Assembly: GCA_029717555.1 (NCBI GenBank) | Contig: JAMDHS010000004.1 | Location: forward strand, 310,001 to 374,000 | From: Peribolospora baueri | Taxonomy: Eukaryota; Basidiomycota; Peribolosporomycetes; Peribolosporales; Peribolosporaceae | Length of the DNA: 64,000 nt | Direction: 5' to 3' | In this document: in pieces, positions 10,705 through 16,778 of the stretch | Layout: the number at the start of each line of letters is the position of its first letter | How positions within the stretch are numbered: the stretch's first letter is position 1 | Position numbers and translations under genes: made by a program | The notes under the pieces: generated by a model | What the model was told of the DNA's origin: nothing | Database searches by the model: none | The model's input: only the letters and a program-made list of their open reading frames with translations

Positions 10705-12158
10705 CTACGCGTCCGAGATCGAGGTCGAATAGACGTATTCGCGGTCGAGTTCGGCGAGGAAGTGGCGCATCTGTCGGTTCGGTCGCCGGTCGTCGGGTTT
10801 GGAAGGGGGGAGCGTCAGGGGGGCGCAGACGCAGGGATGGGGATGGGGATGGGGACGGGGACGGGGATGGACAAACGAAGACGTGCGGTCAGCTCTGGTG
10901 CGGCAACAAACAGTACGCCGGGCCTCCTGAGTCGCAAGGCGAGTGAGTGAGGCCACGCACCGTCGTCTGCCTCCTCTGCGCCTCTTTCCTCCCCTCCTCC
11001 GTCTTCAGCCGGTCGCCACCAATCCTGAGCAACTTGTCGTGGAAATGGCCGACAGACGAGCCCGTCGAAGCGCGCCCTCCAGCGCTTCCGTCTCGTTCCG
11101 TGGGTTCGATATTAGCGAGGGTGTCGACGGGGAGGTGAAGAGGGGTGGAGCGGGTAGAGGAGAAGGCTGCACAGCGGAAGATGCCTGGCGAACGAGAGCA
11201 AAAAAGACAAAGGAGGAAATCATTCGGCTCTTCCGCTCGCCTTCGCTCTCGATAGACCGCGCAGAGCGACCAAGACAATCACAAAAGCAAAGGCAGCCTG
11301 TCTGTCGTCCATGCTCACCGAAAGCGCCAATGGCATCCAACCTGTCTGCGTCGCTCACGCACCAAAGCTCCCTGCACCCTTCCCTCCACCTTTCCTCCGC
11401 CTCATCCTTCTCCGTCCACGTCCACTCGGCCAAACTGCCAGCCTCGCTCATGGCCTTCTCCCTTCTTCTCCTCCTCTTCTCCTCCTTGCTCCAACTCACG
11501 TTCTCCACGACCTTGCAGATCAATTCCCGTCGCTTGGCGAGAAGAACGCCTGAGGCTTCGTGGGAGGTGAAGAAGGGAGCGAGAACGTCGGCGATGGGCA
11601 TGGGAGTGTCGGAGGAAGCGTATTTGGCGTCAGTGAGGTCGTGGAAGAGAGCGCCGAGCTCGACGGCTAGGTGATCCAGCGGGGTCCCGGAGGCGGAGAG
11701 GGAGCGGGCGAGGCGGAGAGCGGTCAGGCGAACCCTGGAAACTGACATGCCGTGTGTGTGTGTTCCGAATCTCAAAGTCAGCGCCCAACAGTCGAGAGGC
11801 TGGAAGAAGAAAAGGCTCACCCTCCCCAGGCGGCGTTGGGGTGGACGGAAGACAAGCCAGAGACGCACCGTGCAGCCAGTCATGCGAGGGGTCATGGCCT
11901 TTCATGTGTTCCTTGACAAGCTCCTCAGCGTCTGCCACGACTTTGAGCTCGGCTGGGGTTACTGTAAAACCGTCATTCCGCGGAGATAGCGATACGAAGG
12001 AGGAGGATGATGACGAAGAGATCTTCCTTTGTGTGAGCTTGCTCGCTGGCGTTCCTTCCTTCGGCAAGCCATGCAGGAAAGCGCTTACGAGGAGCCGGAC
12101 GAAGGCGTTGCAGCGCATCAGCATGGCTGACGTCTAGAAGTGCACCGTTCGCTGCCAT
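10705..12158 (-). CDS. HD-domain metal-dependent phosphohydrolase
   Basis: Five exons, 12158-12089, 11961-11869, 11741-11319, 11184-10961 and 10770-10705, keep phase 1,1,1,0 and give 291 residues. The protein has the HD-superfamily pattern: HDPSHDWLHVSRV near residue 45, then ELGALFHDLTDAKY with the HD pair, then VSDADRLDAIGAFG with the late metal-ligand Asp. The tail (HDKLLRIGGDRLKTEEG ... MRHFLAELDREY) matches the small YedJ/YpgQ type, soluble enzymes acting on phosphorylated small molecules such as nucleotides. The substrate cannot be told from sequence. The ATG at 12158 faces the Cys-Pro protein gene across 200 bp, so the two may share control elements. Plus-strand frames over this gene are shadows. 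Confidence 0.85.
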
Positions 12159-12358
12159 TCTGGGACTCAGAGCGATCGAGATGATTGATTGAGAAGGGAG
12201 AGAGAGCGCTTGGTCTCGTGCCGAGGGTCGCACAAGACCCGTTTAATTTACGCGGCCCATGTGGCATTCCAGTGAAAGTCTCGTGCTGCGGCTCTCGTGC
12301 TGCGGCTCTCCGCTGAAAGAGCCGGCCATCCCCGTTCACTGTCCACCTTACGACGACG
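12159..12358. promoter_or_regulatory. Short divergent promoter, HD enzyme / Cys-Pro protein
   Basis: Only 200 bp lie between two start codons pointing away from each other, so both promoters must fit here or overlap the first exons. The stretch contains a near-perfect direct repeat of tctcgtgctgcggctc at about 12279-12310. Its function is unknown. Confidence 0.45.
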
Positions 12359-14089
12359 ATGACAACGACGACGACGAATATGGCTTCCCACACGCGCCGC
12401 CGCTCCGTACTTGCTCAAGCAAGGCTTTTCCTTGCCCTTGCTCTTCTTGCCGTTGTCCTCGGCAACTTTGTTACCGGCACACGCGCGTTTCCCGATTTCT
12501 TCAAGCGAGGTGGTGAGGGAGATGCCGCTAGCGCGATCGCCAAGGGCGGCGCTGAGTGCCCGCTCAAGGCCGCTGGATGTGAGCGACAACTGTGCCTTGG
12601 ACCTGAATATATGAGCTTGGGAAAGGGATATGAACCGTCTTGCATCTGTCCATTACCTTCTTTCCATTCCTCGCACACAGGCCCGTACTACTCCGCCGCC
12701 CTCTCCGCCTCCCCTCCGCTCTCCTCTCTCGACCTTTCCAAAGCCACCGACTGCCCTCTGGCCTCCAAGTGCCCCATCTTGCGCGCCAAGCAGTCCGAAG
12801 GCGGCAGCAAGGGGAAGGAAAACCTGAAGGAGTTTTTGAGCCACGTCGATCTCAAAGAGGCGTTGGAGAAGTGCCCTTATCTTACGGATGGCGGAGCGCT
12901 CCAGGGAGCGCACAAGGGGTGCCCGCTCAAGGAGGCGGGCTGTGAGTAGACTGGCTCGTATAATCCTTGTGTTTTAGGTGCATACCTGATCTTTTCGCTT
13001 TACACTCCCTGGCTCGTGTGCGTCATCGCTCGCAGGCCCGTACTACCAAGCCATCAAGTCCGGTGACCCTAGCAAGCTCAACTGGAGCCGAGCGACCGGT
13101 GAGGAAGGCCGCGCAGGTCACACCTTTTTTCATGATTCTCATCTATTATCATATATTAGCGAAGATGACCTGACGCCGCTTCATAATCACGTTTCCTGGA
13201 CAGAGTGCCCGCTTGCCTCGAAGTGCCCCGTTCTGCGCGCTAAGGCGGCCGAAGGAGGTGATGCCAAGGTTGCGGATTATATCTCTCACGAGGACGTCGC
13301 GCAACTCGCCGAGAAGTGCCCTTATCTCAGCTCGAAAGCGGCTGGAAAGGGTGGAGAGGAATGGCATGCGGGATGTGAGTGGGAGTCTGTTTTGTGGCAT
13401 GGAAGGCATTTCCGTCGTGAGAGCAGCAAGTTATAGCTCAAACATGTGTCCGTCTCTTTCAGGCCCCTATTACGATGCGATCGTCATGGGCGAGTCGCCT
13501 AGTAAGCTGGATTGGTCCCGCGCGGCCGAGTGCCCACTCGTTTCTGTGAGCATACGTTCCTGCTTTCCTTCATCGTTCAAGCCGCTAACGGCCCGCTCAA
13601 TCTCTTTCTCGTTCTCTGACTGACACTGTCCACTGTTCCTCTCCCATCTTCCTTCTCTTGCTCTGTCACGTCACGGGACAGAAATGTCCGGCGCTACAGA
13701 ACAAGGACTTCACCACCCTGACCCAATCTGACATCGAAGCTGCGGTGCGCAAGTGCCCTTACCTCGCGCACGCTCACCACCCAGGTCATTTCGCAGGTGG
13801 AAAGGATGTGCCACTGTTCAAGGACGAGCGCACGGCGGCGGCGGCCGCGAAGGCTGGCTGTCCTTTCTTCAAGGCCATGCGCGCTGACGAAGTGGACGGC
13901 AAGGTCGCCGAGAGCACTTCCTCCTGGGACCGGTTCCGCGCGCTCGTCCTGCCCTTCGAGCATGCCTCTCTCAACGCCGCCGGAGCTGGATTCTGGGTCC
14001 TCGTTGGCGCTTCGGCTGCTTTCATCTTGGCTCGGTTGACTGCTGGAGGCGGTAAGGCAGTGGAGAAGAAGAAGAAGAAGTCGGAGTGA
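12359..14089 (+). CDS. ER-type membrane protein with exon-encoded Cys-Pro repeats
   Basis: Exons 12359-12578, 12681-12941, 13036-13098, 13204-13374, 13463-13545 and 13682-14089 give 401 residues (a second ATG at 12380 is also possible). An N-terminal hydrophobic stretch (LFLALALLAVVLGNFV) looks like a signal peptide. Three repeats follow, each starting GCPYY, then SKL(D/N)W, (E/D)CPL(A/V)SKCP and KCPYL. All 15 cysteines, and no others, are followed by proline. Near the C-terminus is one membrane segment (FWVLVGASAAFILA) and a lysine tail ending KKSE, a KKxx ER-retrieval signal. Introns 1, 2 and 4 cut the same Gly-Cys codon in phase 1, so the repeats arose by exon duplication. Cys-Pro pairs are typical of heme regulatory motifs (ALAS, heme oxygenase 2), so heme binding is a possible but unproven role. 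No known family was recognised. Confidence 0.85.
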
Positions 14090-14655: not shown

Positions 14656-16778
14656 ATGGCAGGGTCCGCTGCCCTGTACTACCCACAGCCAGCCTCCGAG
14701 GGTCCCACCGTGTCCTTCCTGGTTCGACAGACCTCAGGGTGGACGTTTACCCAAGGCCTGCTCGTGGGCCAAGCCTCCATAGTGCTCGTAGCGGTGCTCT
14801 TCCTTCGGTATGTCGTCTTCGAGAATGCTGAGGCTGCGTTGGAGAAAGACAGGATCAGGGTGAGCACGATACGTGTAGCATGGGGCTGGCCCTTCCGTGG
14901 TATGGAGGGGTGGGAACTTGCTCACGCCTGGCTGTCCCGAGGAGCTGGAAGTGCAGACGTTCACGATCTTCCTGCTCAACCTTTTCCCTTCAGCGATTGA
15001 AAGGTGTACAACGTCTTCGTCGACGGCACGCGCGCTCCTCCTCCGCCTCCAAAGGCTCGGCTGGAGCCGCCTCCCCAACCTCCACCCCAGCCTCCTCCCC
15101 CTACCCGCATATCCTTCAGAAGACCGGCTACGACATATCCGTTCACGCACCGGAACCTACCGATTGGCTCAATGTGCTGCTCGCTCAGGCCATCGTGGGC
15201 TATCGGGAAGACGTCTTGGCAGGTGGCGCGGATTTTGTTGCTGGAGACGGGGGAGTGGGAGAAGGGCTTGAGGGAGGTGCAGACGACGGCGTTGGGGAGG
15301 AGAAACCGAGAGGTGCGAAAGAGCTTATGGAAGAGGTGCTCAACCGGAAGACGGAGAAAGGCATAGATTTCCTGGTGAGTTCCTTTCCATGATGGACCGG
15401 TCGCTTGTCAAGCTGATAGGAGTTCTGACTCCTCGGGCGCATTGCATGGATCACGGCGGTGCTTGTTTCCTGTGTGCGCCTCCAGGATCGCATCACTGTC
15501 ACGGACGCTGATTTTGGGGACGAGTACCCCATCTTCTCTAACGCTCGGATACGGCCCGCAGATGACACCGGTCGCATGGTGAGAAAATCTTTCTTGCTTT
15601 TTCAAACGACAAAATTGGCAATTGTCCTCGTACAATGCAGCTACGACCCTTACCGGTTACTTGGCCACGATCTTCTTTTTGTTCCACATTTTAGCGAGTC
15701 GAGGTGGACATCGACTATAACGACAAGATTACCTTGGCCGTCGAGACGAAGCTGCTGATCAATTACCCCCGACCGCGCTTCGCTACGTTGCCTATCTCCC
15801 TGAGTTTGACGCTAGTTCGATTCTCCGGGACGGTCAGTGCTTTACGCCGGAATAAGGCTACGGTCCTTTTCAGGCTTTGTCAGCGAACTTGGATCTGATC
15901 TCTTTTCCTTGCCGTGCTCATTCTCACAGGTTGCTATCGAGCTCTTCTCCGACACGGTCTCCCCTCACGTCGATCCTTCTACGTTCTCCTCCCGCTCACG
16001 CCACCACATGCACTTCTCCCTCCACCCGGACTTTGCCCTGGACATCCACGCGAGCTCGTTGATCGGCTCGCGGGCCAAACTGCAGGACATCCCCAAGATC
16101 GAGCAACTGGTCGTGTCTCGCATTCGTGGATGGGTGATGGACAGGCTGGTCTGGCCTCGGTATTGGACCTTGGGATTGCCCAAGCTCGTGCCGAGCATGG
16201 CGGACGGGGAGAGGAGGGCTAGGGCGGAGAGGGAGATGGAGATTGGAATGGGTCCGGAAGAGGGCGAGGAGGAGGAACGTAGCGGCGCGGCGGGGACGCA
16301 GAGGCGCGGGTTTGTGCCAGGGGGCGAAGAGGAGGAGGTCGTTCGCCAGCGCCTCGCTCGCGCCGCCGCGGGTCTGGAGTCAACGGGACGGTTCGGAGGT
16401 CCGCCAGATCGATTGGACGGGTCGTCGGACCTGTCTTCCTCTTCCTCTGCACCGCTAGATCGTTCCTCGCCGCGGGACGTGGGCGGCCGAGAAAAGGAAG
16501 GGCTAGAAGCCCACCGCGACGCCGCCAACGCCGCTGGCGGTGGTGAAGAGGAGGATGCAGGTCCGCAGCTCCCAGGAAGCCTGGCTGGTGGCATTGAAGC
16601 GTGGAGCAGAAGCGTTGGTCGGGCCACCACTTCTTCGCGGCCCTATTCCCCTCCCTCTCCCGGCTCGATGGGCGGCGGCGGCGGTGGGGGCCGCAGTTCT
16701 GCCCCTCCTCCTGCCGCTGGGTTAAGACAGCGCGCTCTGCATGCGGGGGTACCGAGGGCGGCTTCTGCCGTGCGGTGA
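14656..16778 (+). CDS. MMM1: Mmm1, ER anchor subunit of the ERMES tether
   Basis: Exons 14656-14859, 14994-15374, 15486-15578, 15695-15832 and 15930-16778, with every intron in phase 0, give 554 residues. A short lumenal N-terminus precedes one membrane segment (about residues 33-55, LLVGQASIVLVAVLFLRY), then a Ser-rich linker. The SMP domain runs from DWLNVLLAQAIVGYR through EYPIFSNARI, YNDKITLAVETKLLINYP and FSLHPDFALDIHASSLIGS to RIRGWVMDRLVWPRYW. Mmm1 binds Mdm12 and, with Mdm10 and Mdm34, tethers ER to mitochondria and moves phospholipids between them. Beyond the SMP domain is a tail of about 195 residues, acidic and Ser/Pro-rich, longer than in most yeast Mmm1. It is probably disordered. 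Confidence 0.95.

Follow-up and report, generated by a model that had tools for sequence, protein, structure and literature searches.

An all-Cys-Pro repeat protein of Peribolospora baueri as a candidate for heme holding in the secretory pathway

The gene at positions 12359–14089 (+) encodes a repeat protein in which every cysteine is followed by proline. Its predicted model joins six exons across GT...AG introns into 401 residues and a stop codon, and the spliced translation contains 15 cysteines, all of them in Cys-Pro (CP) pairs (15/15). This all-CP repeat protein is real and unusual, and its sequence makes it a good candidate for heme holding in the secretory pathway. A heme reading of the CP repeats is plausible, with about an even chance of being right. 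More specifically, we propose a predicted type I membrane protein of the endoplasmic reticulum (ER) that would act as a heme buffer or relay in the ER lumen through tandem heme regulatory motifs (HRMs), and give this slightly less than an even chance. The window, that is, the whole 64,000-nucleotide stretch of DNA analysed, has a G+C content of 0.605, and same-genome searches used an assembly of 22.1 Mb in 178 contigs. Intron-bearing genes in the window and its matches to the fungal families MMM1 and Pal1 indicate a fungus, possibly a basidiomycete yeast. The gene and its product are composed of the following features.

12359–12578, + strand: exon 1, with ECPL (Cys67) and the first base of the Cys74 codon
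Residues 1–43, N terminus in exon 1: predicted signal peptide or anchor, hydrophobic core at about residues 23–38 by hydropathy
12579–12680, + strand: intron 1, 102 bp, phase 1, frame open if retained
12681–12941, + strand: exon 2, remainder of repeat 1 (GCPYY, DCPL, SKCPIL, EKCPYL) and the GCPLKEAG linker
12942–13035, + strand: intron 2, phase 1, stop in frame if retained
13036–13098, + strand: exon 3, start of repeat 2 (GCPYY...SRAT), with the N-glycosylation sequon NWS at residue 176
13099–13203, + strand: intron 3, 105 bp, phase 1, frame open if retained
13204–13374, + strand: exon 4, remainder of repeat 2 (ECPLASKCPVL, EKCPYL)
13375–13462, + strand: intron 4, phase 1, stop in frame if retained
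13463–13545, + strand: exon 5, start of repeat 3 (GCPYY, ECPLVS)
13546–13681, + strand: intron 5, phase 0, stop in frame if retained
13682–14089, + strand: exon 6, SKCPAL, RKCPYL and a partial fourth repeat with GCPFF (Cys326)
13976–14038, C terminus in exon 6: hydrophobic segment, residues about 365–385, then the KKKKKSE end and stop
Residues 72–141: repeat 1
Residues 159–223: repeat 2
Residues 237–294: repeat 3
Residues 325–335: partial fourth repeat (stub)

All five predicted introns run from GT to AG, have GTGAG donors and measure 88–136 bp. Introns 1, 2 and 4 cut one shared motif codon, G(T|GC)PYY, in phase 1 and with similar flanks. Since the three introns lie at an equivalent codon, intron 1 is taken to be real and its splicing very likely. 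Their shared position further suggests an exon block of phase 1-1 as the unit in which the repeat multiplied. Introns 1 and 3 have lengths that are multiples of three and would introduce no stop if kept in the transcript. Retention of intron 3 would add no cysteine. Retention of intron 1 would add 34 residues with three non-CP cysteines, giving 18 cysteines of which 15 are in CP pairs; the statement that every cysteine precedes proline thus depends on intron 1 being spliced out, as predicted. Regulated retention of intron 1 is conceivable. A YTNAY branch-point motif is absent from introns 1 and 4, which weakly counts against both introns or indicates that the motif is too strict. Upstream of the gene, a scan for iron-responsive GATA sites over bases 11601–12420 yielded one AGATAG at 11984; lying 375 bases upstream of the start codon, it says little.

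The CP content is far from chance. In 20,000 residue shuffles the highest CP count was 6, reached once. The repeats are not independent, so a stricter count considers five motif types only, for which the chance is (23/401)^5 = 6e-7. Four window frames with Pfam matches, untrimmed to exons and including one match (DEP) slightly below its cut-off, have proline after 1 of 17 cysteines. Among all six-frame open stretches of at least 400 amino acids in the window, coding or not, the count is 11 of 77.

Twelve of the cysteines belong to three repeats, each with the motif order GCPYY, [DE]CPL, SKCP and KCPYL (3/3). The other three are Cys67 (ECPL), Cys154 (GCPL) and Cys326 (GCPFF). Within the repeats, the gap from GCP to [DE]CP is 22–24, that from [DE]CP to SKCP is 6 in all three (6, 6, 6), and that from SKCP to KCPYL is 23–34. 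The first-pass annotation had assigned the splicing, placed all 15 cysteines before proline and described three repeats of fixed motif order; the GT...AG introns, with introns 1, 2 and 4 in an equivalent codon, the spliced translation and the repeat sequences bear it out on each point.

The repeats are old. Pairwise amino acid identity is 38/65, 30/58 and 32/57, and third codon positions match at 35/65, 22/58 and 19/57. The corresponding dS values (NG86) are 0.91, 2.47 and not computable, with dN at 0.43–0.51. This high synonymous divergence points to old duplications, yet the CP pairs are unchanged. The Cys and Pro columns are invariant in 8 of 8 cases, versus 26 of the 57 gapless columns overall (31/57 changed); the associated P of ~0.001 is post hoc, from an alignment anchored on those very motifs. 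Exon 2 folded alone (86 residues, five-row alignment) gave an unusable model, with a mean pLDDT of 52 and no residue at or above 70.

Both ends of the protein, by sequence and hydropathy, fit a predicted type I ER membrane protein. Hydropathy peaks at 2.58 in a 15-residue window starting at residue 24. With 19-residue windows, it reaches up to 2.24 at residues 17–41 and 1.88 from residue 365, and stays below 0.5 for all windows starting at residues 61–330. Three arginines precede the first hydrophobic segment, which fits N-in insertion. The C-terminal sequence is KKKKKSE, and we take its KKSE end to be of the dilysine ER-retrieval form. The predicted cytosolic tail has only ~16 residues, and the single sequon, at Asn176, lies within repeat 2. 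An N-terminal signal-like segment, a C-terminal hydrophobic segment and the KKSE end had all been noted before, and are present in the sequence and hydropathy profile.

The sole Pfam signal is Preseq_ALAS (PF09029) at residues 94–116, the DCPLASKCPIL stretch, with an E-value of 0.016 and 16 bits, below the curated cut-off of 21 bits. In the same Pfam scan (limit E 10, HMMER filters on), the heme oxygenase domain PF01126 and the cytochrome c heme lyase domain PF01265 are absent from the protein, and Pfam reveals no ALAS catalytic domain, nor any effector domain such as a kinase or DNA-binding one. NCBIfam returns one weak match alone, CrpP-related (E 0.069, 13.1 bits vs a cut-off of 35), and PDB sequences return none at E up to 10. 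The earlier statement that the protein matches no known family therefore holds across Pfam, NCBIfam and PDB sequences. Searches of prokaryotic genomes, viral contigs and plasmids detected no relative; those of them that were pattern-based reach mainly close relatives. The search for a paralogue in the genome found none, its seven matches being five of the gene's own exons and two weak ones (E 0.14 and 0.5). The exact pattern ECPL[x]SKCP, which by design misses repeat 1, where Asp replaces Glu, and repeat 3, which an intron interrupts, occurs at one place in the genome, repeat 2 of this gene. Literature searches on heme regulatory motifs, Cys-Pro, fungi and the ER, on Cys-Pro heme repeats of fungal membrane proteins and on heme chaperones of the secretory lumen (2018 onwards) showed no such protein in the titles and opening lines of abstracts among the matches listed.

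The repeat motifs resemble those of heme-metabolism proteins in the same genome. ALAS is located on contig C44, and the N-terminal exon that we assign to it, a frame lying upstream, contains LCPYL, ATECPVM and ACPHA, with CP at 3 of 4 cysteines. The six-frame genome search with PF09029 returned nothing although ALAS is present, and therefore lacks the sensitivity to find so short a family. CP motifs also occur at both loci for cytochrome c heme lyase (PF01265), on contigs C90 and C77. One stretch of 292 residues contains QCPMH and KCPIAH (2/2 cysteines); the other contains SKCPVDH, with 2 CP pairs among 11 cysteines when the sequence before the matched part is counted. SKCPVDH fits the Hap1 motif, given as (K/R)CP(V/L)DH in the available text of PMC11580460. 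The heme oxygenase gene on contig C134 has no CP pair in its matched frame. The repeat motifs KCPYL, ATECPL and SKCPV are thus close to the ALAS and heme lyase forms, indicating a motif vocabulary shared with the heme-metabolism proteins of the genome. DNA able to encode KCP[YF][LF] is found at 25 places genome-wide versus 12 for the reversed control; three of the 25 lie within 900 bp in the CP-repeat gene, and no other two are close together. The heme link made in the first-pass annotation gains from these ALAS and heme lyase motifs and from the sub-threshold Preseq_ALAS match; heme binding, the ER location and the role as sensor, buffer or carrier are inferred.

In the proposed mechanism, signal insertion would place the repeats in the lumen, where the chain would present a tandem array of CP heme regulatory motifs, three repeats and part of a fourth, and the dilysine end would return the protein to the ER. 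The CP thiolates, made accessible by the proline, may bind ferric heme weakly and exchangeably, with Tyr, Phe or Lys residues nearby assisting. A single tethered chain with numerous weak sites could then buffer the heme entering the ER and deliver it to hemoproteins, secreted or membrane-bound, as these fold. Heme binding may be gated by the luminal redox state through disulfides, as has been reported of heme oxygenase 2 (HO-2). A stronger version, in which a dedicated ER-lumen heme reservoir or chaperone arose from an exon-duplicated four-motif HRM unit, carries numerous hemes on each chain and supplies them to secretory hemoproteins, we consider unlikely.

Published work bears on the binding step from both directions. 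The consulted portion of PMC6356037 states that CP motifs bind heme transiently and that a positive net charge and hydrophobic residues favour binding. Net charge is positive in 7 of the 15 nine-residue windows around the cysteines, with the highest values at Cys104, 189, 291 and 326. In the remaining eight windows the net charge is zero or negative, and no His or Tyr occurs within four residues of the four [DE]CPL sites; both observations speak against the heme reading. In HO-2, mutation of one or both C-terminal CP motifs left heme buffering unaffected, according to the accessible part of PMC8808069. One CP motif of Hhy1 proved dispensable, although mutation of the CPC motif weakened binding 7.4-fold (PMC13135908, in excerpt). 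Because of these mutant results, a CP pair alone is not proof of binding. An oxidising lumen could also lock the thiols into disulfides, a further objection to the heme reading. Titles in the reference list of PMC8808069 describe the HO-2 CP motifs as a thiol/disulfide switch, and by analogy a switch of this kind could serve as a model of luminal gating.

The cysteines might instead pair within the repeats, with the prolines capping helices, to form a disulfide-stabilised luminal protein of structural or scaffold function that holds no heme. The predicted luminal location and the four cysteines per repeat, two of whose three gaps are near constant (22–24; 6, 6, 6), would suit such pairing. However, 15 is an odd number, the third gap varies from 23 to 34, and the motif forms resemble those of the genome's own ALAS and heme lyases. 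Disulfide proteins need no proline after each cysteine, and we regard this explanation as rather unlikely. The prolines are equally without evident need in an ER metal or redox thiol buffer (Zn, Cu or peroxide), in which the cysteines would act with nearby His or Tyr and not with heme. The 15 cysteines and 8 histidines within a 303-residue region would favour such a buffer, but the CxxC and CxC typical of many metal sites are missing, the nearest cysteines being 6 and 7 apart, and we judge it improbable.

An ER-tethered heme sensor would retain heme as the ligand, with heme occupancy leading to cleavage, degradation or partner binding, like the HRMs of ALAS, Bach1 and Hap1. This would accord with the function of the multi-HRM proteins Hap1 (seven; PMC11580460, in part) and Bach1 (six; PMC10203417, in part), which are transcription regulators. 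The absence of effector domains from the Pfam scan and the short predicted cytosolic tail of ~16 residues argue against a sensor, which we consider improbable.

Several known systems come close to the CP-repeat protein, and each differs from it. The ALAS presequence (PF09029) is alike in its CP-hydrophobic motifs, is the sole Pfam signal, and in this genome belongs to an ALAS with CPYL and TECPV; the CP-repeat protein differs by having no catalytic domain, a predicted location in the ER and not in mitochondria, and 15 motifs versus 3. The mitochondrial cytochrome c heme lyases (PF01265) of this genome share CP motifs including SKCPV, and differ in domain, compartment and motif number. HO-2 faces the cytosol, whereas the repeats of the CP-repeat protein, which has an N-terminal signal-like segment, are predicted to be luminal; the latter also lacks a heme oxygenase domain, and the genome carries a separate heme oxygenase gene. 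The two are alike in that HO-2 has CP motifs right before a C-terminal ER membrane segment, as described in the consulted section of PMC8808069. The fungal heme-homeostasis protein Hhy1 of S. pombe carries CP and CPC motifs, but is cytoplasmic with an amidohydrolase-like domain, and one CP and one CPC are reported in its C-terminal half (PMC13135908, as excerpted). The C. elegans heme chaperone HRG-3 undergoes maturation in the secretory pathway; in the available text of PMC4045156 it is a 45-residue secreted protein that binds one heme per two chains. It is not a membrane-anchored CP repeat. Finally, Hap1 and Bach1 have several CP motifs per chain and are transcription factors with, in the partial texts of PMC11580460 and PMC10203417, seven and six motifs, counts that the 15 of the CP-repeat protein exceed. 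A further difference is that Hap1 and Bach1 are not known to carry a membrane anchor.

If the proposal is true, the gene for this ER-retained chain with 15 heme-type motifs would make heme supply to the secretory pathway concretely testable. A 2014 review, in the part available, states that 'almost nothing is known' of heme supply to secretory hemoproteins and that chaperones may exist (PMC4045156). A 2020 review, likewise available in part, says that it is not yet known how heme is distributed in the ER or Golgi (PMC7140478). Candidate clients in the genome include two matches to peroxidase PF00141 and one to a CDH-cytochrome-like domain at C134:438922-439335 (−). This CDH-cytochrome-like protein is possibly a secreted heme b protein. 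A search of the genome for DyP found none, with 3 of 14 controls positive, and one for Peroxidase_2 found none, with the controls silent too. Few luminal hemoprotein candidates were thus found, and the thin client set counts against a heme relay.

Downstream of the gene, a frame at 15816–16775 (+) matches MMM1 (PF10296, E 9e-19); the frame at 14656–15000, probably the MMM1 start, has no Pfam match. We take MMM1 to be the ER subunit of ERMES, an ER-mitochondria contact protein. ERMES is named as a possible heme route for which direct evidence is lacking, in the consulted text of PMC7140478. We give the MMM1 adjacency little weight because neighbouring genes in fungi are often functionally unlinked. 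The divergent upstream gene, at 11008–11901 (−), contains an HD domain (PF01966, E 4e-6). The window also holds a Pfam match to Pal1 and intron-bearing genes.
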